DNA of 44,170 nucleotides, taken from the IMG/VR virus record IMGVR_UViG_3300010883_000080, positions 1-44,170 of that record; one strand, given 5' to 3'. A program made the translations under genes and the position numbers. Under the pieces are notes generated by a model. It was not told the DNA's origin and ran no database searches. It saw only the letters and a program-made list of their open reading frames with translations. Of this stretch, positions 6,588 to 20,492 are shown in pieces; position 1 is the stretch's first letter, and each line of letters opens with the position of its first letter. Origin of the DNA: a virus.

Positions 6588-6890
6588 ATGAATATAGAAG
6601 AAATGGAAGAAACATTAAATAAGCAAGTAGAACTAGGTATAATTACCGAGGCAGAAAGACTAAGGTTCCTGAAAAGGGCCAGTGGTGGAGTATATCTAAC
6701 TGAGACAGATAAGGCATTGTTTGAAGCAATAAACGAAACTTACATGACTTGGATAGATAATCTAAACACACTTGGCGTGATTTCAGATTCCCGTCTATCA
6801 AGTACTAAAACTAAAACTCGAACAGCAATTGCTAAGGCGATTTCTGAAGGTAAAATGACAGAAAATGGAGATATAGGAGAGGAAGAATAA
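6588..6890 (+). CDS. Hypothetical helical protein, 100 aa
   Basis: Start chosen at the ATG at 6588 because GGAGATG lies 7 bases upstream; two other ATGs occur just before. MNIEEMEETLNKQVELGIIT opens a helical protein with a C-terminal Thr/Lys-rich stretch (RLSSTKTKTRTAIAKA). Its last codons (GGAGAGGAAGAATAATGG) carry the ribosome site for the ubiquitin-like gene, with stop and start overlapping, so the two are translationally linked. Confidence 0.6.
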   Translation: MNIEEMEETLNKQVELGIITEAERLRFLKRASGGVYLTETDKALFEAINETYMTWIDNLNTLGVISDSRLSSTKTKTRTAIAKAISEGKMTENGDIGEEE

Positions 6891-7096
6891 TGGTAAAAGT
6901 AACAATATTAAACCAAACGGGGCATACAGAACTGGAACTTAGTGCAAGTGAGGCAATAGAGCAAATCTATAACCATCCGACCCACTGGGCATACATTAAT
7001 GGTGAATTAGTGGCACATGAAAACATCGGCAATATCAATTTAGAAGATATTGAAGATGTTACATTGGCACAGGCAATTGTTGGAGGAAACCTTTGA
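6890..7096 (+). CDS. Ubiquitin-like (ThiS/MoaD-type) beta-grasp protein with GG-NL C-terminus, 68 aa
   Basis: The order of elements fits a beta-grasp: strand KVTILNQTG, strand HTELELSAS, helix EAIEQIYNH, strand WAYINGELVAHENI, then LEDIEDVTLAQAIVGG. The NGE-V turn, the LxDxxxV segment and the final AxxGG match ThiS and MoaD-like proteins closely. The chain continues two residues (Asn-Leu) past the diglycine, so a peptidase would have to expose GG before E1 activation. Such a peptidase (JAMM, 14263) and an E1-like enzyme (13379) are encoded downstream. The GG codons are not part of a neighbour's ribosome site. A sulfur-carrier role is the alternative. Confidence 0.7.
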   Translation: MVKVTILNQTGHTELELSASEAIEQIYNHPTHWAYINGELVAHENIGNINLEDIEDVTLAQAIVGGNL

Positions 7097-7145
7097 TTAG
7101 GTTCCTCTAATTCTGTCGTTACTGGGTTAGGCAGTATATCCTAAC
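7083..7145 (+). other. Two hairpins at the end of the Ubl gene
   Basis: GAGGAAACC (7083-7091) pairs with GGTTCCTC (7100-7107) with one bulged A, across the stop codon. GTTAGG (7126-7131) pairs with CCTAAC (7140-7145). With the pseudoknot that follows they fill most of the 122-base gap before the next gene, making it a compact structured RNA. Confidence 0.5.
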
Positions 7146-7149
7146 ATAT

Positions 7150-7197
7150 AGTGAGTTAAGGGATTCTCACTTTAATAAAAAATTCCCTTTTTTTAAT
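7150..7197 (+). terminator. 3'-UTR H-type pseudoknot, copy C, ending in a T-run
   Basis: Plus-strand order: AGTGAG (7150-7155), TT, AAGGGA (7158-7163), TT, CTCACT (7166-7171), 12-nt A-rich loop, TCCCTT (7184-7189), then more T. It aligns without gaps to copy A read on its own sense strand. Stem 2 has changed from GACT/AGTC to GGGA/TCCC, three compensatory pairs. The T-run suggests transcripts may also end here. It follows the ubiquitin-like gene and precedes 7219. Confidence 0.65.
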
Positions 7198-7218
7198 TTT
7201 AAAATTGAGGAATTAAAA

Positions 7219-7584
7219 ATGGCATGGCAAGATGAATATTTAGTAAAGTGTTTTCACACTTATTGTAAAACTAGAACAGAAAATCAAAATGATTATTGGG
7301 AATACTACTATGGTTATTATATGGGTGATTTAGCCAACTTAGTTGCTCTTGGTGGGCAAACGGCGTATGGCCGCAGAATACATATAACGAGAGAAAATGT
7401 TGTAAAGGTAGTAGATTATCTTATAGATACTGGGCCTAATAATACCAATGTAAACAAAATACTAAAAATATTTAGGACAGCAATGAAACCTTATTTATTC
7501 AAGGTAATATACAATTCAAGGAAGGTGAAATATAATGAAATGGTTCTTCAAATGGATAATGGCTCTACCGAAAGCAACTCTTGA
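7219..7584 (+). CDS. Hypothetical protein, 121 aa
   Basis: TTGAGGAATTAAAA precedes the ATG. Begins MAWQDEYLVKCFHTYCKTRT, with a Tyr-rich segment (YWEYYYGYYMGDLANL) and a helical C-terminal half. No family recognised. It is the first gene after the structured gap, so it may start a new transcript. Confidence 0.65.
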   Translation: MAWQDEYLVKCFHTYCKTRTENQNDYWEYYYGYYMGDLANLVALGGQTAYGRRIHITRENVVKVVDYLIDTGPNNTNVNKILKIFRTAMKPYLFKVIYNSRKVKYNEMVLQMDNGSTESNS

Positions 7585-7876
7585 TTTTAGGAGAGATTAT
7601 AATTTATCTCGTAGATGTCAAAAGATTGAAAATAAATTGGGTTGTATTGCTGGGGCAATATACATGTATGACAAGATAGTAGATACTGTTAAGCCTATGC
7701 TTATTAGTGATTTACTAAATCATGTTCGTGATACAGATTATGTAGACCCTAATCCTCTTTTTAATGAATGGTTGATTGCTAAAGGTATAAAATATGGTTT
7801 TATTATACTTAATGAGCCTGATGAAGAAGTTCCAGTTGAAGAAGAGGCTTGGAAGATATGGGAAATGCAAGAATAA
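7535..7876 (+). CDS. Hypothetical protein, 113 aa
   Basis: GGAAGGTGAAATATA before the ATG at 7535; overlaps the previous gene by 50 bases. MKWFFKWIMALPKATLDFRR gives a short hydrophobic/basic start (too weak for a sure membrane helix), then a helical body and an acidic tail (EPDEEVPVEEEAWKIWEMQE). Unknown family. Confidence 0.6.
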   Translation: MKWFFKWIMALPKATLDFRRDYNLSRRCQKIENKLGCIAGAIYMYDKIVDTVKPMLISDLLNHVRDTDYVDPNPLFNEWLIAKGIKYGFIILNEPDEEVPVEEEAWKIWEMQE

Positions 7877-8055
7877 TTAGATTCTTATGTCTTACCTGTA
7901 AAAAAGAAATTAAAGGTAGTTTAAGGAGAACAGATATGGTTTCCTGTATATGTGGTAACATACACATAGGCAATCCCGACACTTTGATAGTACTAGATTG
8001 GGAAAAGGTAAGAATAAGACATAGTAAAAAATGGTGGAATGTTAATGAATTGTGA
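7858..8055 (+). CDS. Zinc-ribbon protein, 65 aa
   Basis: ATG at 7858 (a TTG 9 bases upstream is in frame). Contains FLCLTCKKEIKG and SCICGNIHIG: CxxC and CxC pairs about 20 residues apart, the pattern of a small zinc ribbon like those in transcription-related proteins. C-terminus is Trp/basic (HSKKWWNVNEL). Overlaps both neighbours. Confidence 0.55.
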   Translation: MGNARIIRFLCLTCKKEIKGSLRRTDMVSCICGNIHIGNPDTLIVLDWEKVRIRHSKKWWNVNEL

Positions 8056-8203
8056 TATAGCAGCAATATGGAAAATGATGAGTTATACAGGTGTTAAACT
8101 TGATAATGTGGAAGAAATGAACTATAATAGTCAAGAAAATGCTGTATATATTTTTGATGGAGACAAATGGTTTAAAATATTTATTATGGCGGAATTACCA
8201 TGA
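8045..8203 (+). CDS. Hypothetical protein, 52 aa
   Basis: ATG at 8045 overlaps the end of the zinc-ribbon gene. Reads MNCDIAAIWKMMSYTGVKLD and ends VYIFDGDKWFKIFIMAELP, a mixed alpha/beta small domain of unknown type. Confidence 0.4.
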   Translation: MNCDIAAIWKMMSYTGVKLDNVEEMNYNSQENAVYIFDGDKWFKIFIMAELP

Positions 8204-8240
8204 TTAATATGAAACTTGAAGAAAGGAAGGAGGAATAAAT

Positions 8241-8504
8241 ATGAATACTAGAATAAATATAAACGATATATACGACACATGTACAAAGCAGAAATGTAGT
8301 TGCTCTAAAAAGGAAGACCCTCACTATAAATATAGACATAATGAATGTAAAGGTTCATGTGATAAATGTAATTGTCCAGAATTTAACAAGTCTGATTTTG
8401 GTTGCTGGAGATTTGCAGTAGGTAAAAAGCCAGTTAAACTATGTTTAGATGAATGTGAATGTGTATGTCACGAAAAGATAGGTGAATTAAATGCAAAGAA
8501 ATAA
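8241..8504 (+). CDS. Cysteine-rich zinc-binding protein, 87 aa
   Basis: Thirteen cysteines in 87 residues: CTKQKCSCSKKEDPH, CKGSCDKCNCPEF, then CLDECECVCHEK. The spacing suggests two or three zinc sites. I cannot match it to a named family. Strong AAGGAGGAATAAAT site before the ATG. The last codons include GGTGAATTAA, the ribosome site of the next gene. Confidence 0.6.
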   Translation: MNTRININDIYDTCTKQKCSCSKKEDPHYKYRHNECKGSCDKCNCPEFNKSDFGCWRFAVGKKPVKLCLDECECVCHEKIGELNAKK

Positions 8505-8790
8505 TAGAAATGTGGAATTTAAAGAAAGGCCAAAACCAGCAGTAGGTAATAATAAACACTTAAGAAATATTGGTTATATTACTGAATGTATTATACAGAA
8601 AGGGGGTAGAGCCTCTACAAGTGAAATATACGATTGGATGAATAGCAATACTAGAAATGGTATTGGAATGAGACAATTACCTCAAGTTTTATACATGGGT
8701 CCGTTTGTACAATGCGGCCAAGTAAGAGTTAAAAATGCTCTTGCAAGTAGTAGTTACGAAGTCTTTGTTTGGGGTATTAAAGAAGAGTAA
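8491..8790 (+). CDS. Winged-helix-like protein, 99 aa (paralog family)
   Basis: After a basic N-terminus, the core LRNIGYITECIIQKGGRAST, helix SEIYDWMN, then RQLPQVLYMGPFVQCGQVRV and a final strand ending VFVWGI follows the same order as the proteins at 3735 and 6332. Basic start and fold suggest DNA binding. It lies directly before the hairpin in front of nrdJ and might control that gene; this is inference. Confidence 0.6.
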   Translation: MQRNNRNVEFKERPKPAVGNNKHLRNIGYITECIIQKGGRASTSEIYDWMNSNTRNGIGMRQLPQVLYMGPFVQCGQVRVKNALASSSYEVFVWGIKEE

Positions 8791-8792
8791 TG

Positions 8793-8813
8793 GTAACTCT
8801 TATTAAGAGTTAC
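8793..8813 (+). promoter_or_regulatory. Perfect hairpin in the nrdJ leader
   Basis: GTAACTCTT / AAGAGTTAC, a 9-bp perfect stem with a 3-base loop, 25 bases before the nrdJ start. An A-rich run and the AAGGTGAAC site follow. Could protect or separate the nrdJ message. The small size argues against a cobalamin riboswitch. Confidence 0.5.
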
Positions 8814-8837
8814 TAAATAAGAAAAAAGGTGAACAAT

Positions 8838-10727
8838 ATGAATAGTGAAAAATTATCAAAAGATATATTATCCGATATTACAATACATATGAAATACGCT
8901 AAGTATTCTCCTACTAAAAATCGTAGGGAAACTTGGGTTGAATTATGTTTAAGAAATATGACCATGCATATAGATAAGTATCCAAAATTGGAAAGTGAAA
9001 TTAAAAATATTTATCATGGTTTTATTATGACTAAGAAGGTTTTACCTTCTATGAGATCAATGCAATTTGCAGGCAAACCAATTCAAATTAGCCCTAATAG
9101 AGTTTATAATTGTGCATACATGCCAATAAATTCTATGGAATGTTTTGGTGAATCTATGTTTTTACTCCTTGGAGGCACTGGGGTAGGTTATTCTGTACAA
9201 CGGCACCATGTTATACAATTGCCAGAAATTCGTAAACCAAATCCTAAGAAAACTCGTAGGTTTTTGATAGCAGATTCTATTGAGGGTTGGGGTGATGCAA
9301 TTAAAATATTAATGAAGACATATTTTGGTGGAAATATTTCAACTCCTGTATTTGACTACACCGACATTAGACCTAAAGGTTCACCATTAATTACTTCAGG
9401 TGGTAAATCACCCGGACCTGCACCTTTAAGAGAATGTTTAGTTAAGATTGAAAATATGTTAAAGGAAAAAGAAGATGGCCTACAACTAAGTCCAATAGAA
9501 GTCCATGATATTATGTGTTATATTGCAGAAGCAGTATTGGCTGGTGGTATTAGAAGGGCAGCCTTGATTAGTTTATTCTCGGCAGATGATATGGAAATGA
9601 TTACTTGTAAGACAGGTACTTGGTGGGAAAATAACCCGCAGAGAGGTCGAGCAAATAATTCAGCAGTATTAATCCGTAATAGAGTCTCTAAGGACTTCTT
9701 TATGTCTCTATGGGATAGAATTAGGGCATCAGGTAGTGGTGAGCCGGGAATATATTTCTCTAATGACAAAGATTGGGGTACTAACCCATGTTGTGAGATT
9801 GCCCTACGACCATATCAATTCTGTAACCTAACAGAAATCAATGCAAGTAGTATAGTAGATGAAACAGATTTTTACGATAGATGTAGGGCGGCTGCTTTTA
9901 TTGGTACTCTACAGGCAGGATATACAGATTTCCATTATTTGCGTGAAGTGTGGAAGAAAACTACAGAAAGAGATGCACTTTTAGGTGTAAGTATGACTGG
10001 TATTGCAAGCAATGTATTATCTAGTTTTGAAATAAACATGGATGATTTACTAAAAAATGGTACTAAAATTGTACTTGGTGAAAATAAAAGAGTTGCTCAC
10101 GAGATAGGAATTAAACCGTCTAGCAGACTTACTTGTGTAAAACCTGCGGGAACTACTAGTTTAACATTGGGAACTTCTTCAGGTATTCATGCGTGGCATT
10201 CAGATTATTACATTAGAAGAGTTAGGGTAAATAAGAATGAATCAATCTATAATTATTTGATTGAAAATCACCCCAGTTTAATTGAGGATGAATACTTTTC
10301 CCCTCATGATACTGCTGTAATTTCAGTGCCTCAAAAAGCACCTGAGATTGGCACTACAAGACTTACAGAAACTGCTCTTAGTTTGTTAGAAAGGGTTCGA
10401 ACCTTTTCCCGTAAATGGGTAAGGAATGGACACACGGATGGAATTAATACACACAATGTTTCTGCTACTATTTCTGTTAAAGAAGATGAATGGGATATAG
10501 TAGGAGAATGGCTATGGACTAACCGTGAATATTATAACGGTTTATCTGTATTGCCTTATGATGGTGGAACATATAAGCAAGCACCATTTGAATCAATTAC
10601 CAAAGAAAAATATGAAGAAATGATTCTAGATTTAAAATCGGTAGACTTAACCAAGGTTGTAGAGTTAGAAGATAACACAAACCTTCAGGGAGAAATAGCA
10701 TGTGCTGGTGGTGCATGTGAAATCTAA
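8838..10727 (+). CDS. nrdJ: Class II (adenosylcobalamin-dependent) ribonucleotide reductase, 629 aa
   Basis: Reduces ribonucleotides to deoxyribonucleotides for viral DNA synthesis, using an adenosylcobalamin-made thiyl radical without oxygen. Visible motifs: C92 in VYNCAYMPI, N316-P-C318-C-E320 (the N-x-C-x-E radical site), C329 in FCNLTEIN as redox partner, KPAGTTSLTLGTSSGIHAWH with the phosphate-binding PAGT, and the C-terminal shuttle pair C622/C627 (CAGGAC). The similarity is to the monomeric Lactobacillus RTPR-like branch (PSMRSMQFAGKPI); length is a little under that enzyme. Start at ATG 8838, 8 bases after AAGGTG; an in-frame GTG lies at 8829. Only one subunit gene is needed for this class. 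Adenosylcobalamin must come from the host or the environment. Confidence 0.92.
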   Translation: MNSEKLSKDILSDITIHMKYAKYSPTKNRRETWVELCLRNMTMHIDKYPKLESEIKNIYHGFIMTKKVLPSMRSMQFAGKPIQISPNRVYNCAYMPINSMECFGESMFLLLGGTGVGYSVQRHHVIQLPEIRKPNPKKTRRFLIADSIEGWGDAIKILMKTYFGGNISTPVFDYTDIRPKGSPLITSGGKSPGPAPLRECLVKIENMLKEKEDGLQLSPIEVHDIMCYIAEAVLAGGIRRAALISLFSADDMEMITCKTGTWWENNPQRGRANNSAVLIRNRVSKDFFMSLWDRIRASGSGEPGIYFSNDKDWGTNPCCEIALRPYQFCNLTEINASSIVDETDFYDRCRAAAFIGTLQAGYTDFHYLREVWKKTTERDALLGVSMTGIASNVLSSFEINMDDLLKNGTKIVLGENKRVAHEIGIKPSSRLTCVKPAGTTSLTLGTSSGIHAWHSDYYIRRVRVNKNESIYNYLIENHPSLIEDEYFSPHDTAVISVPQKAPEIGTTRLTETALSLLERVRTFSRKWVRNGHTDGINTHNVSATISVKEDEWDIVGEWLWTNREYYNGLSVLPYDGGTYKQAPFESITKEKYEEMILDLKSVDLTKVVELEDNTNLQGEIACAGGACEI

Positions 10728-10980
10728 ACGATATATTAAAACAATTGATAGGTTAATGTCTGATGGTGAATGGCGTACTAGAGATAAAATAGTGTGTCAA
10801 TTAATAGATTTACCTGTCATAACAAAAAAACAAGGGCTTCACGAAAGTCAAAGAAGTATAAGACGAATGATACCAACCAAAGACGAAATAAGTTGGTATT
10901 TAAGAAAGAATAACAAATATGAAACGAGAAAACAGATGGTGAGAGAATGGAGAATGAAGGACATACAGTATATCGAGTGA
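10717..10980 (+). CDS. Basic putative DNA-binding protein, 87 aa (GTG start)
   Basis: GTG at 10717 overlaps the end of nrdJ and follows GGTGGTG. Reads MKSKRYIKTIDRLMSDGEWR, TRDKIVCQLIDLP, then IPTKDEISWYLRKNNKYETR. The first half fits a winged helix; the IPT...YL part resembles the 36-359 protein. Strongly basic. Translation is probably coupled to nrdJ. Confidence 0.55.
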   Translation: MKSKRYIKTIDRLMSDGEWRTRDKIVCQLIDLPVITKKQGLHESQRSIRRMIPTKDEISWYLRKNNKYETRKQMVREWRMKDIQYIE

Positions 10981-11156
10981 CTAGTCTAAAGGCTAATGGT
11001 TCGGTATGGACAAAAAATTATGATACACTGGTGGATTTATTAGAAGTATTACCAATACTAATTAATAAATTCCCACATGTAATAATGAGCAAGCAGACTC
11101 TAAAAGTGAGTCCCTTAGAATATTTAGTCGGGATGAGTGACGGAAATGAAAATTGA
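10947..11156 (+). CDS. Hypothetical protein, 69 aa
   Basis: GATGGTGAGAGA precedes the ATG. MENEGHTVYRVTSLKANGSV, then a hydrophobic helix (LVDLLEVLPILINKFP). Mixed alpha/beta, unknown. Overlaps both neighbours. Confidence 0.5.
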   Translation: MENEGHTVYRVTSLKANGSVWTKNYDTLVDLLEVLPILINKFPHVIMSKQTLKVSPLEYLVGMSDGNEN

Positions 11157-11364
11157 ATATAAATTAATAGATAATGAAGAAGATGTGCCCTTAAAGGTTG
11201 AATACAATGATGAACTTATGCCTATTATTACAATTAATTTGCATTATAAGATTTGGTTATCTTTAATGAGAACAGTAATACCGGGAATTAGCGAAAGTCT
11301 TAGAGATAAATTATCAGAAATTTGTGATTCGTACCTAAAAGAAATGATATATCTAGAGGAATAA
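11146..11364 (+). CDS. Hypothetical protein, 72 aa
   Basis: ATG at 11146 (a GTG 9 bases upstream is in frame). MKIEYKLIDNEEDVPLKVEY, then strands ITINLHYKIW and helix EICDSYLKEMIYLEE. The first strands could suggest a beta-grasp, but there is no diglycine end, so I do not call it ubiquitin-like. Unknown. Confidence 0.5.
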   Translation: MKIEYKLIDNEEDVPLKVEYNDELMPIITINLHYKIWLSLMRTVIPGISESLRDKLSEICDSYLKEMIYLEE

Positions 11365-11366
11365 AT

Positions 11367-12641
11367 ATGCTTAATTATAACTTACAATTATCTAGACAGA
11401 GGGGACATAACCAAAATCATGTTCATGTAAGAACTAGTGTTTCGTTAGATACTTCAAATTATTATCACCAATATACTAGAAATATATCTATATATAGGTA
11501 TCATACTTTACAACAAAAAAACCCTCTTCTAACTGGTGTTAGGTCTTGTATTAATAATGGTTTAAGACATGGATTAAACATTCTTACAATTAAGTTTGAT
11601 AATGATTGGTGCTTTACCATCTATAAAAACAAGGGGATTTGGATTAACGGGTTTAAAATGACTAAATCTAGTGCTGATATGATATTTTGTTATATGTTGT
11701 CTAGACATCTTAGACCTTTAACCTATGGAGAATCAGAAAAAATATTTATGGATATTAAAGATACTGATTTGATAATAGCCGAAACTTTGATTAATAAACT
11801 TAAGTATAGTTTTTATAATGATGAAGGATTGCTGGTGGAAACTTTACTAAATATAGAAAAAACTGGTAGAGAAGAGGTATCCATAGAATTAAACGAAGGA
11901 TTATGGGTTTCAATTAAAGATGCACCTTTTAAAAGTTTTATGAGAGCGTGTGGTAATAGTAAAAATAAATGGTATGGTATTAGTCCAGAAGAATTATATT
12001 ATGAGTGTAGTGGTAATGTAATAAGTAATTCAAATAGAAAACTTATACATGCTTTTTTGGAGCAGAACAGACATTCAACTTTGGTAGAACAGAAATCAAT
12101 GGAATTAATTGAGGGACTGGCAAGTAAATTCCCAACAAGAATTAAAAATGTCGATGTGTATACAAAGTCTCAGGTAGCAAATCAATTGAAGGACATCGAA
12201 TCTGTAGAAATACCCCATAAAGGTATGCTAATCAAGGGTTCTAAATTTGATTGGTTAGTTTATGGTGCGACTCATAGAGGACATCAAGGCGGGACACAGG
12301 ATGTTTCAACTTATCTTCTGTTTAGTAATAAAAATTATGAACAGGTGTATGATGATGATGGTGATGATGTAGTGTTAATTAGAGCGATTGAAGGTTGTAA
12401 TGTGCCTAGTAAATATAATGAGGGGGTCTTAGATTTGGAAGGATTAACTTTTGTAGGTCCTATTTGTATAGACCAAACACAAACAGATGTATCTTTGGGA
12501 GATCAATATGCAGCAAGAGCGTTAGCATTATTAAATGATAAAACAACTATTGACCTAGTATCTACTCTGTCAACTTATAGTCAATACAGTGTAAAACATA
12601 GGATTGATTTTGATGCCATGTCTGAATTGTCAATCAAATAA
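11367..12641 (+). CDS. Unknown protein, 424 aa
   Basis: Starts at ATG 11367 after AGAGGAATAAAT. No domain recognised. N-terminal half is strand-rich (HVHVRTSVSL, TIKFDNDWCFTIYKNKGIWI); the centre is helical; a C-terminal part has DDDGDDVVLIRAIEGCN. No Walker motif, zinc cluster or membrane helix. It lies between the nrdJ group and TFB, overlapping the TFB gene by 29 bases, so it is probably co-expressed with transcription and Ubl/E1/JAMM genes. It is one of the largest unknowns here and a candidate for a new partner of one of those systems. Confidence 0.7.
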   Translation: MLNYNLQLSRQRGHNQNHVHVRTSVSLDTSNYYHQYTRNISIYRYHTLQQKNPLLTGVRSCINNGLRHGLNILTIKFDNDWCFTIYKNKGIWINGFKMTKSSADMIFCYMLSRHLRPLTYGESEKIFMDIKDTDLIIAETLINKLKYSFYNDEGLLVETLLNIEKTGREEVSIELNEGLWVSIKDAPFKSFMRACGNSKNKWYGISPEELYYECSGNVISNSNRKLIHAFLEQNRHSTLVEQKSMELIEGLASKFPTRIKNVDVYTKSQVANQLKDIESVEIPHKGMLIKGSKFDWLVYGATHRGHQGGTQDVSTYLLFSNKNYEQVYDDDGDDVVLIRAIEGCNVPSKYNEGVLDLEGLTFVGPICIDQTQTDVSLGDQYAARALALLNDKTTIDLVSTLSTYSQYSVKHRIDFDAMSELSIK

Positions 12642-13233
12642 AACTAAAATGAACATACCCCTACAATTATTTGTATGTGAAGAGTGCAAGTTAATACAAG
12701 TATCACGCATCTTTGAACATCAAGATAATAAGCCCGTCAATAGGGAAATGATGGACCTAACTTTATTATGTTCCGAATTTGGAATAAAAGAGGTTGATGA
12801 AGTGAAAAAAATACTTCGTACATCATATGTTCATTTAATGTATAGTAGGTATACAATGGCAGAATTGGCTGCTGCATCGTTATATCTTTTCCAAAGACTA
12901 AGGAAAAGACATGCTAATTTGCTAAGATATTGTAGGTTCTTCGGCATAAAACAACGAAGAGTTAAACGAATCGTACAGCGATTAGAAAGTCATTTTGAAG
13001 TGAGTACAATGTACACACTTGATGAGGCAAAAGAAATGTGTGAAAAACAACAGTTCGATTGCTACGAATTAATTAAAACAACTGCGGAAGTAATGACGCT
13101 TGATAAACATACTATCGCAGGTTGTATCTATAATGGTACTAATTTATCTTTGGCTAAAGTAGCCAGATTTTTTAATGTAAGTACTGAGACAGTTTATCGA
13201 GCAAACAATAAAATAAAGGAGATGATTGAATGA
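12613..13233 (+). CDS. tfb: Divergent TFIIB-like transcription factor (TFB), 206 aa
   Basis: Recruits RNA polymerase to TATA promoters in archaea. N-terminal zinc ribbon with C3, C6, C22, C25 (MPCLNCQ and VCEECKLIQ). First cyclin repeat at about 78-118: TMAELAAASLYLFQRLRKRH, with RVKRIVQRLE as its last helix. Second repeat around 150-206: TIAGCIYNGTNLSLAKVARF and VSTETVYRANNKIKEM, close to the AxxIxxG/TVRNRYKEL ending of TFB. At 206 residues it is shorter than cellular TFB (about 300); the B-reader/linker between ribbon and core is reduced. The ATG at 12613 is preferred because it places the ribbon at the N-terminus. It may steer host polymerase to viral promoters. Confidence 0.7.
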   Translation: MPCLNCQSNKTKMNIPLQLFVCEECKLIQVSRIFEHQDNKPVNREMMDLTLLCSEFGIKEVDEVKKILRTSYVHLMYSRYTMAELAAASLYLFQRLRKRHANLLRYCRFFGIKQRRVKRIVQRLESHFEVSTMYTLDEAKEMCEKQQFDCYELIKTTAEVMTLDKHTIAGCIYNGTNLSLAKVARFFNVSTETVYRANNKIKEMIE

Positions 13234-13382
13234 ATGAAGGTGAATTAGAAGGAATAGATTGCTACTATTGTGGTACAATTAAAGTACAGTTGTATTTGAA
13301 TCATGAAGTAAATAACTATGCGTATAGACAGGTTACTTGTATGCCTTGCTATAAAAAATGGCTGAAGGAGAGGATTGAATGA
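13230..13382 (+). CDS. Zinc-ribbon microprotein, 50 aa
   Basis: DCYYCGTIKVQ and VTCMPCYKKWLKERIE: two CxxC pairs 26 residues apart, a classic ribbon. It overlaps TFB upstream and E1 downstream by four-base ATGA junctions, so all three are made together. Possibly a partner of one of them. Confidence 0.6.
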   Translation: MNEGELEGIDCYYCGTIKVQLYLNHEVNNYAYRQVTCMPCYKKWLKERIE

Positions 13383-13939
13383 AGAAAATAATGATAATTG
13401 GAGCAGGTGGAATTGGAAGTTTTTTAATCCCACTATTGGATAAAGTAGGGAAGGGAAGATATGCAGTAACTGTATATGACCCCGACACAGTAGAGACTAA
13501 AAATCTAACTTATCAAAATTTTGATGAGACCGATGTTGGTAAAAATAAAGCAGTAATCATGGAAAGTAGATATAAAATTGTTGAAGCACAGCCATACAAA
13601 GTTTTATCAGAACAACAAATTAGAGGTTATGATTTAGTTGTATGTTGTGCAGATAATTTAGATATTAGGCGCACCATGTATACATCTAAAGTTGGTTGGT
13701 TAGATTTGAGAGCGCAAGGTAGGAATGGTTTGCTTATTTCAAGTGATGAAGATTCTAAAATGTACCCAACATTAACAAGTGGACCTGAAGGAAACTTTTC
13801 TTGTCAAGGAGATCATTGGGATAAAAGTACAAAAGGTGTACATTTTACTCATGTGGCAGTTGCTGGTTATGGTGCTGAATGGATTCAAAGGCATTTCAAT
13901 GACGAAGATACACACAAACATATTCATGTGAGGGCTTAA
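13379..13939 (+). CDS. Minimal E1-like (ThiF/MoeB/UbaA superfamily) activating enzyme, 186 aa
   Basis: Adenylates the C-terminal glycine of a ubiquitin-like protein. The Rossmann start KKIMIIGAGGIGSFLIPLL (GxGxxG at 8-13) is followed by YDPDTVETKNLTYQNF with D34 and N42 (E1 signature D-x-D-x-V-x-x-x-N), VGKNKA (K55, K57) and the conserved ADNLDIRR (D92) for Mg-ATP. C142 in GNFSCQGD is in the place of a possible catalytic cysteine; the CxxC zinc pairs of MoeB/ThiF are missing. At 186 residues it is about 60 shorter than cellular homologs, so it may be adenylation plus a bare cysteine loop. Encoded next to TFB and just upstream of the JAMM protease; its likely substrate is the protein at 6890. 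Confidence 0.85.
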   Translation: MKKIMIIGAGGIGSFLIPLLDKVGKGRYAVTVYDPDTVETKNLTYQNFDETDVGKNKAVIMESRYKIVEAQPYKVLSEQQIRGYDLVVCCADNLDIRRTMYTSKVGWLDLRAQGRNGLLISSDEDSKMYPTLTSGPEGNFSCQGDHWDKSTKGVHFTHVAVAGYGAEWIQRHFNDEDTHKHIHVRA

Positions 13940-13940
13940 G

Positions 13941-14063
13941 ATGGATAATAAAAAAATTGATAGAATAATTAAAAATTTGAAACAATTAAAGAAAGATTAT
14001 CCTTATAAATTTAAAGGGAAAGAAGAAGAATCATCAGACGATGATTGCGGTGGTGACAACTAA
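13941..14063 (+). CDS. Small charged protein, 40 aa
   Basis: MDNKKIDRIIKNLKQLKKDY, then a Lys/Glu stretch and an acidic end DDDCGGDN. Probably disordered after the first helix. The stop overlaps the next start, and the GGTGGTGAC codons that give CGG also serve as ribosome site for 14063, so the diglycine may be accidental. Located between E1 and JAMM. Confidence 0.45.
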   Translation: MDNKKIDRIIKNLKQLKKDYPYKFKGKEEESSDDDCGGDN

Positions 14064-14266
14064 TGAATAAAGTTGTATCAACTCTAACTACTAATGTAAC
14101 CGATTGGTGTGGATTATGTAGCCGATTTACAGTGTGGTTGCCAGTACCAATCTACCACGGTGGGGATGAATCAAGATGTAAAGATTGTGGTAATAATTTA
14201 GATTGGCAAAGTTATGTAGAGCAAATAGACCTAAAAATATATGAGTACAGGAGAGATAAACAATGA
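14063..14266 (+). CDS. Zinc-ribbon protein, 67 aa
   Basis: DWCGLCSRFTVWLPVPIYHG and RCKDCGNNLDWQSY: two CxxC pairs with an aromatic strand between, a rubredoxin-like or zinc-ribbon layout. Overlaps 13941 and JAMM genes at ATGA-type junctions, so it is co-translated with the E1/JAMM set. Confidence 0.6.
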   Translation: MNKVVSTLTTNVTDWCGLCSRFTVWLPVPIYHGGDESRCKDCGNNLDWQSYVEQIDLKIYEYRRDKQ

Positions 14267-15021
14267 GATTAGAAACAATAAAAAATAGTAAAAGCCCCGA
14301 AGACCGACATGCAGAAAATTATTTAGATACCTTCATAGGAAATGGTGAAGAATATGTATATGATATTTATTACGATAATGATATGGCTTGTGTAGTGGCG
14401 GAAATCTGGAATGAACAAGATGATGATGAGGCTGATTTTATTATAGAAGCGTCTGGTGTAGAAAGTGCCTATCTACAAAGACAATTAATTGAACCTAAAA
14501 GTGGTGAATTAAGTTCATTTTTTAAAGGAAATGAAATGAAATTTGCTGAAGTAGATAACTTAAATGAAAGATTTTGTGACATCGCCCCTGAAATTTGGCA
14601 AAAAGAAATCAGGGAGATTTGGCGTAGTTTGTGCTTTAGTGGTAATGAAGACCCTAGAAATAGCCGTTTTCTGGAAGCAATTTGGCATGCATCTACCGTA
14701 ATCCTACCAAAACTAGAAGTTTCTATTATAGTAGATAGAGATGGTAAATTGTTTATGAATCGTGGTTCGCCCGGATTTGTAGATTATAAGGGTGTGGATT
14801 TAGTAGGTATGAAAATACCTTTACAAAGTTGGATACACACTCATCCATTTGGCTTGGCTTTTTGGTCAGGTACGGATAGAAATACATTATCAAACTGGAA
14901 GTTTATGCTTGAAGAAGCAACTGTTTTAGGTAATCAGGAGAGGTTAACATGGATAAAAGACAAATCAGGAAAAGAAACAATGATAAAGACAGTGGAAAAG
15001 GAGGAAGGGTTCGATTTATAA
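14263..15021 (+). CDS. JAMM/MPN+ metalloprotease (deubiquitinase-like), 252 aa
   Basis: The zinc motif is exact: H192-x-H194-x7-S202-x2-D205 (WIHTHPFGLAFWSGTD), with E152 in LEVSIIVD as the likely upstream catalytic glutamate. JAMM enzymes cut after the diglycine of ubiquitin-like proteins, either to mature the precursor or to remove the modifier. The first 140 residues are acidic and have no recognised domain, so the MPN part is C-terminal. The partner genes would be the Ubl with its extra Asn-Leu tail (6890) and the E1 (13379). A tail-assembly JAB as in lambda gpK is the alternative, but those carry NlpC/P60 and sit in tail operons; this gene does neither. The following gene starts inside it. 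Confidence 0.82.
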   Translation: MRLETIKNSKSPEDRHAENYLDTFIGNGEEYVYDIYYDNDMACVVAEIWNEQDDDEADFIIEASGVESAYLQRQLIEPKSGELSSFFKGNEMKFAEVDNLNERFCDIAPEIWQKEIREIWRSLCFSGNEDPRNSRFLEAIWHASTVILPKLEVSIIVDRDGKLFMNRGSPGFVDYKGVDLVGMKIPLQSWIHTHPFGLAFWSGTDRNTLSNWKFMLEEATVLGNQERLTWIKDKSGKETMIKTVEKEEGFDL

Positions 15022-15389
15022 GATTCCCTACTTTTTGCTCAAGAGAAATAATTTGTCCTATTTGTGATGGTAGTGGTTGTAAAATATGTAACAATACGGG
15101 TCACTATGAAATAACTCAAGAAGTGTGGGCTAATATCCAACACCCTCATGTTATACAATACATACATGATAACTTTAACACCGTTAGTAAGGAATATAAT
15201 ACCCTGTATGGTAGTAAATTAAAACTATCTACTAATGGCATGTATAAGATCAATAAAATTAAATGGGAAATATTGGAAATTAATTCTTTGGCAGGTACAA
15301 TGTGGATATGTATTTGTCAAGAGCATAATGAAGTAAAACATTTTTACGGTGAAAAGGAGATGAAAAAATGGTTAGTATCAGGAAAATAA
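14949..15389 (+). CDS. DnaJ-type zinc-finger-like protein, 146 aa
   Basis: ATG at 14949 has AGGAGAGG 6 bases upstream, although it overlaps the JAMM gene by 73 bases in another frame. After a basic start, IICPICDGSGCKICNNTGHY gives CxxCxGxGCxxCxxxG, one half-site of the DnaJ cysteine-rich domain. The rest (about 55-146) is of unknown fold with a C-terminal strand-rich part. In DnaJ this zinc centre binds unfolded clients. May work with the chaperonin or with TFB; unknown. Confidence 0.6.
   Translation: MDKRQIRKRNNDKDSGKGGRVRFIRFPTFCSREIICPICDGSGCKICNNTGHYEITQEVWANIQHPHVIQYIHDNFNTVSKEYNTLYGSKLKLSTNGMYKINKIKWEILEINSLAGTMWICICQEHNEVKHFYGEKEMKKWLVSGK

Positions 15390-18552: not shown

Positions 18553-20492
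<1,940 letters not shown>

Follow-up and report, generated by a model that had tools for sequence, protein, structure and literature searches.

A 44,170 base virus record, IMG/VR record IMGVR_UViG_3300010883_000080 (positions 1 to 44,170), is the whole stretch of DNA analysed here and is referred to as the window. On its + strand it carries three genes for a small ubiquitin-like protein (Ubl), a minimal E1 activating enzyme and a JAMM metalloprotease. The initial annotation had placed the three genes on one strand and had read their motifs; open reading frame translations and a Pfam ThiF match (E = 1.1e-14) confirm positions, strand and motifs. The features of this trio are as follows.

6890..7096, + strand: Ubl gene; 68 aa ThiS-like protein of predicted beta-grasp type, ending AIVGG-NL, with one Lys (K3)
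7082..7087, + strand: codons of Gly65-Gly66; invariant, presumed site of activation and cleavage, followed by an Asn-Leu tail
13379..13939, + strand: minimal E1, an adenylyltransferase of the ThiF family; 186 aa, with an invariant Cys142 in S-C-Q
14263..15021, + strand: JAMM metalloprotease; 252 aa, with E152, H192, H194, S202 and D205 invariant

Distribution and order of the trio

IMG/VR was scanned with each of the three proteins separately, and hidden Markov models (HMMs) were then run over all loci. HMMs seeded from the trio find relatives of Ubl in 59, of E1 in 83 and of JAMM in 94 of 98 sources, i.e. 97 viral loci and the window. E1 and JAMM are both present in 164 of 180 sources (95 distinct E1 proteins), and the relatives come from marine viral contigs. 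All 111 loci that contain the three genes (63 distinct E1 proteins) display the order Ubl-E1-JAMM on a single strand, and the spacing from Ubl to E1 in these loci is 2.3–8.3 kilobases (kb) with a median of 6.0 kb. Some contigs were counted as more than one locus, hence the counts of distinct proteins.

The metagenomic records are mostly fragments. In every locus that lacks a Ubl, the contig sequence before E1 is shorter than 9.5 kb. Loss of the Ubl from relatives that keep E1 and JAMM, which the initial annotation had named as a refutation, is therefore not seen, and Ubl is never missing where at least 9.5 kb upstream of E1 is present. Thirty larger records searched whole gave E1 in 30, JAMM in 30 and Ubl in 27, and in the three Ubl-less records the contig stops 2.8–5.6 kb upstream of E1. 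Between pairs of relatives, the identities of Ubl, E1 and JAMM rise and fall together (Spearman 0.71–0.73), which fits a common inheritance of the trio. Because relatives are found by HMM, order and strand are fixed and the motifs are intact across loci, the three genes are real and belong together and are not a chance assembly. The trio is a fixed, universal gene set of its virus group.

One record, IMGVR 3300021958_000021 (L055), carries two different copies of the whole trio. At 184,733 bases it is about twice the usual size, and represents either a chimeric assembly or two joined viruses.

The three proteins

An alignment of 38 distinct Ubl sequences over 66 positions shows N8, G11, H12, H29-P30-T31, W33 and V64-G65-G66 to be invariant, and the VGG end is kept in 60 of 60 Ubls. 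The AlphaFold2 model of the window Ubl (predicted local distance difference test, pLDDT, 83) has strands at positions 2–8, 11–17, 33–36, 39–42 and 56–59 and helices at 19–27 and 43–48, with positions 65–68 disordered. The modelled order, beta-beta-alpha-beta-beta-(helix)-beta, is that of a beta-grasp protein with a flexible GG tail. Lists of fold matches are mostly beta-grasp and include ThiS, MoaD, TtuB, SAMP2, SUMO, ubiquitin and the immunoglobulin-binding protein L. The ThiS/MoaD-like arrangement proposed by the initial annotation is therefore upheld by the beta-grasp order of the model and by beta-grasp neighbours, weak as these are. By sequence, the Ubl profile gave only chance matches to PDB, and no Ubl family was matched when members were compared one by one with Pfam and NCBIfam. 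A weak Inhibitor_I24 match in eight Ubl members was taken as chance.

The segment that follows GG varies from 0 to 9 residues and is absent in seven of the 38 Ubls. Residues after GG, noted in the initial annotation, are thus found in the window (Asn-Leu) but not in all relatives. Tails with Cys are frequent, e.g. C, CY, SC, HC and similar. The Ubl cores are poor in Lys, with none in seven, one in 30 (nearly always K3) and two in one, and carry a net charge of about −10. In comparison, 60–80 aa open reading frames of the same loci have a median of six Lys, and just ten that are not Ubls have one or none. Such scarcity of Lys would be apt for a tag meant to escape tagging by further Ubls.

The window E1 displays GAGGIG, a DPDTVETKN signature and CADN. 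There are 36 invariant positions in an alignment of 57 E1 sequences, C142 among them. Across 93 distinct E1s, C-x-DN and SCQ are present in all 93, the D/N signature (D-x-D-x2-E-x-KN) in 92 and GxGGIG in 91. Profile matches are to MccB, UBA5, Cap2, NEDD8 E1, Uba4 and MoeB. The top NCBIfam model is PRTRC ThiF (4.4e-14, 52.4 bits, below the cut-off of 144.75), and the UbaA equivalog model gives 29.6 bits, below its cut-off of 450. In PADLOC, E1-E2 models were matched solely through their E1 part. Cys142 would be the natural candidate for a thioester.

The window JAMM carries HTHPFGLAFWSGTD, which is H-x-H-x7-S-x2-D. The JAMM-type catalytic centre is conserved; HTH-x7-S-x2-D is intact in 93 of 93 distinct JAMMs, and E152 is invariant in 67. 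By sequence, the JAMM profile matches AMSH-LP, STAMBP and Sst2 (E = 1e-4), then RPN11. The JAMM model is matched best in structure by PfJAMM1, whether or not SAMP2 is bound, and by AMSH, with Z scores of 8.0–8.7 (PfJAMM1 8.7, AMSH 8.5), about 110 residues aligned and a root mean square deviation of 3.8–4.4, which indicates a JAB fold; Cap3 and BubCD are also among the structural matches. Foldseek alone places an archaeal Rpn11 homologue first (E = 0.0097) and lists cytidine deaminases as well, proteins that also have the deaminase/JAB-like fold.

Eleven loci have a Ubl that ends exactly at GG, and all of them keep an intact JAMM motif. A protease kept where there is no tail must have something else to cut; trimming as its sole role is ruled out by these GG-terminal relatives. 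The proposal of the initial annotation that the JAMM is needed because GG is not terminal consequently fails.

An additional N-terminal domain at about residues 1–63 of the JAMM (14263-14450), of the form strand-helix-strand-strand-helix, is found only in the longer JAMMs (about 230–264 aa), which are the closer relatives of that in the window.

Mechanism, rival functions and related systems

The trio probably represents a virus-encoded, E2-less, SAMP-like system of reversible protein modification, of a lineage separate from SAMPylation. In the proposed sequence of steps, the Ubl would be made with 0–9 residues after VGG and the JAMM would trim the tail where one is present. The minimal E1 would then adenylate Gly66 and probably hold the Ubl as a thioester on Cys142. 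From there the Ubl would be passed to Lys of viral or host targets, directly or via an unrecognised partner, and the JAMM would cut it off the target again. Reversible tagging is favoured because the isopeptidase-like JAMM is intact at the 11 GG-ending loci, the tag is depleted of Lys, and there is no recognisable viral sulfur chemistry.

The likeness of the parts to archaeal SAMP, UbaA and JAMM, already drawn in the initial annotation, is supported by motifs and by profile and structure matches. Shared with the archaeal SAMP/UbaA/HvJAMM1 and PfJAMM1 systems are a small beta-grasp protein with a C-terminal GG, a single E1 and a JAMM isopeptidase; no E2 was found for the trio either, in searches with poor controls. 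In contrast to SAMP/UbaA, the trio is viral and lies in one gene region, its 186 aa E1 has neither CxxC pairs nor the NLxRQ Arg, and its Ubl is Lys-poor.

Several observations weigh against a conjugation system. The fold matches of the Ubl are numerically weak (Foldseek E = 0.06; Z under 5). The Arg of NLxRQ is present in 0 of 93 E1s, with Tyr at this place in 90 of 93, and zinc CxxC pairs are present in 0 of 93; E1 activity is therefore not assured. These absences lower the case for a canonical MoeB/ThiF but not for membership of the ThiF/MoeB/E1 superfamily, as other E1-like families may share them. No E2 is found by Pfam in 21 records, either with PF00179, whose control matched nowhere, or with the Prok-E2_B and Prok-E2_D models (PF14460/PF14461), whose controls matched only below cut-off, and no search was aimed at E3. 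Partners for sulfur transfer could come from the host. In addition, the closest to the Ubl of the three sequence references tested is E. coli ThiS, a sulfur carrier. The two align end to end with coinciding C-termini at a score of 21.3, versus a maximum of 18.6 over 300 shuffles, 150 of which left the last five residues unshuffled.

This last result bears on the main rival, a role as sulfur carrier. The E1 would activate the Ubl to a C-terminal thiocarboxylate that provides sulfur for virus-directed modification of tRNA or of a metabolite, like ThiS, TtuB, QbsE and CysO, and the JAMM would trim the tail in the manner of QbsE/QbsD or release the product in the manner of CysO/Mec+. The combination of tail and JAMM does resemble QbsE/QbsD, tails with Cys are common, and TtuB, MoaD and ThiS are all structural neighbours of the Ubl. 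Trios of E1, Ubl and JAMM together with sulfur-metabolism genes are known (PMC1779556). However, rhodanese and cysteine desulfurase are found in 0 of 21 records, where controls were positive in 13 of 14 and 14 of 14 genomes; the conserved neighbourhood contains no sulfur-transfer gene, and no thiazole, molybdopterin or sulfurtransferase gene is recognised nearby. Among the references tested, ThiS comes closest to the Ubl in sequence; the trio departs from the ThiS/ThiF, MoaD/MoeB and QbsE/QbsD carriers in that its JAMM is retained at tail-less loci, and this JAMM is closest to isopeptidases. Sulfur transfer is less likely than tagging but is the main alternative, given the likeness of the Ubl to ThiS and a host that may furnish the partners.

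E1 and JAMM-family parts are also shared with the antiviral Bil and type II CBASS (Cap2/Cap3) systems. Those systems have E2 domains or subunits, whereas no E2 (with weak controls) and no CD-NTase is recognised near the trio. A further possibility is counter-defence, in which the trio would act on a SAMP-, Bil- or CBASS-like defence of the host, e.g. with the JAMM stripping host tags while the Ubl serves as a decoy. The structure of the JAMM is AMSH-like, and the many predicted deSAMPylases of the Borg elements of archaea have been read as possible counter-defence (PMC12660748). A counter-defence set would be expected to be patchy, yet the trio is universal and syntenic in its group, and a decoy requires no dedicated E1. 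Counter-defence is accordingly considered unlikely.

Prokaryotic neighbourhoods of Ubl, E1 and JAB genes, as well as phage tail clusters with Ubl and JAB, have been known since 2006 (PMC1779556). Bacteriophages already have cassettes of a broadly similar type, in the form of PRTRC-type E1/E2/JAMM sets; PRTRC is a plasmid cassette, and its ThiF is the best NCBIfam match of the present E1, far below cut-off. No relative of the Ubl or JAMM was found in INPHARED at the thresholds used. Bacillus phage vB_BauM_KLEB27-3 (OM634661; L180:660-3708; 217 kb) has in a row the Prok-E2_D-like gp196, the PRTRC_A/JAMM gp195 (HSHHTMNAFWSSTD) and the ThiF gp194; no Ubl is recognised in this cassette. In Vibrio phage D69 (OZ195729; L181:340-4897), a 263 aa protein contains three repeats, all of which have TGTKG at their end. 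Prok-E2_D, a JAMM (HSHx7SxxD) and an E1 come next. The 263 aa protein reads like a tandem Ubl precursor of the PRTRC_C type. The annotated start of the D69 E1 is too late, as the in-frame sequence before it codes for GCGGTG and SRQN. The Ubl cassette of D69 is likely complete, and its JAMM is shared by D181 and D148. In Salmonella phage Arash (OQ632216, 176824-178526), about 1 kb separates the tblastn match of the phage E1 from that of the D69-type JAMM, likely another such cassette.

In common with the trio, KLEB27-3 and D69 encode an E1 beside a JAMM of the same motif spacing. Those phages differ in having an E2 of their own (Prok-E2_D) and SRQN E1s, and the D69 tandem protein ends GTKG; Prok-E2_D is found in 0 of 21 records of the present group, with controls matched only below cut-off. 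The trio is set apart by its apparent lack of E2, a reduced E1, a ThiS-like and Lys-poor Ubl and, above all, its universality across the group.

Gene neighbourhood and virus identity

Three further genes belong to the conserved surroundings of E1 and JAMM.

11367..12641, + strand: 424 aa orphan protein, kept with E1 and JAMM in 49 of 49 loci; GPIC-I-D motif with Cys367 invariant
12604..13233, + strand: TFIIB-like factor (TFB), next conserved gene upstream of E1, 49 of 49 loci
14949..15389, + strand: 146 aa four-Cys protein, overlapping the 3′ end of the JAMM gene, 47 of 49 loci

The block of 424 aa protein, TFB, E1 and JAMM is present in all 49 loci examined. Open reading frames overlap by a few bases from TFB through a 50 aa reading frame to E1, and from a 67 aa reading frame through JAMM to the 146 aa gene, as in an operon.

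The 424 aa protein also has a GDQ-A-R...LND motif. It has no PDB or Pfam match and no fold known by sequence. Its GPIC-I-D recalls the E2 motif G-x-ICLD; however, as a classical E2 it yields an hhalign probability of 0.5% over 14 columns, no better than an unrelated profile. Homology with E2 is rejected, and by analogy with E2 the protein is a possible partner of the trio.

The window also encodes Cpn60, Cpn10, an RFC-like clamp loader, PolB and a B12-type ribonucleotide reductase, in two opposed gene clusters. The virus is recognised as archaeal by its TFB, which matches TFIIB at a profile E of 1.5e-13. PolB, RFC, TFB, GroEL/GroES and the two opposed clusters agree with what is published on Aoguangviridae/Magrovirales, whose association is with marine Poseidoniales (PMC10768690; PMC12999244), and this gene content alone points to Magrovirales with marine Poseidoniales as host. 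The viruses are tailed, and their hosts are probably abundant marine archaea. In work on predicting viral hosts, a ThiF/MoeB-like gene ranked with the commonest auxiliary genes in viruses of archaea, and ubiquitination was mentioned (PMC8276007). A literature search of partial coverage, so that an earlier description of the trio is possible, found no link of magroviruses with ubiquitin and, for archaeal viruses, the ThiF-like enzyme only (PMC8276007).

A role in virion or tail assembly is a further alternative. Lambda TAPI (Ubl) and TAPK (JAB-NlpC) share with the trio a virus-encoded Ubl with a C-terminal Gly and a JAB, and caudate phage tail clusters hold a Ubl plus JAB (PMC1779556). The lambda genes lie in a tail cluster with no E1 described, whereas the magroviral E1 is universal and the trio is outside the tail module. 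It lies among TFB, replication and chaperonin genes, and the presumed structural module is on the other strand. NlpC/P60 was not detected. The initial annotation had named a grouping of the JAMM with tail-assembly JABs as counter-evidence; the matches are instead to AMSH and PfJAMM1, and no PHROGs match groups it with tail JABs. Tail assembly is thus very improbable, and identity of the JAMM as a tail-assembly JAB is rejected on these matches and on location, beside TFB and upstream of GroES/GroEL, RFC and PolB.

For the SAMP-like system, a possible use would be to change or remove host factors, e.g. the transcription machinery, during takeover, which is hinted at solely by the adjoining TFB. 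The suggestion of the initial annotation that host proteins are marked for destruction finds no support in the present data. PMC4895103 describes degradation by proteasomes of a Haloferax TATA-binding protein once tagged with a Ubl; this case, and the position of E1 next to a viral TFB, lead to the guess that the virus tags host transcription factors. A bolder version, which we regard as a long shot, is that archaeal viruses of an entire order rely on a Ubl pathway of their own. The 424 aa protein would then be a new transferase that stands in for E2/E3 without being homologous to them, and host transcription proteins and others would be redirected or removed by means of the tag. A universal activate-and-remove Ubl set in marine archaeal viruses, minimal and E2-less, with tag, enzyme and eraser all viral, would show Ubl tagging to be a core function in viruses of archaea.

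A cellular origin of the block is rejected on one scan of genome contigs, which gave just three contigs of metagenome-assembled genomes (L099, L100, L101) with the same block, all labelled as bacteria, and those labelled Altibacter and Maricaulis are probably mis-binned archaeal virus.

A class II (B12-dependent) ribonucleotide reductase gene at 8829-10727 lies between Ubl and E1 and is found in 29 of 49 loci. The Cpn10 and Cpn60 genes adjoin each other at window positions 18553-20383 and are of group I type, as judged by a match to the phage GroEL family.

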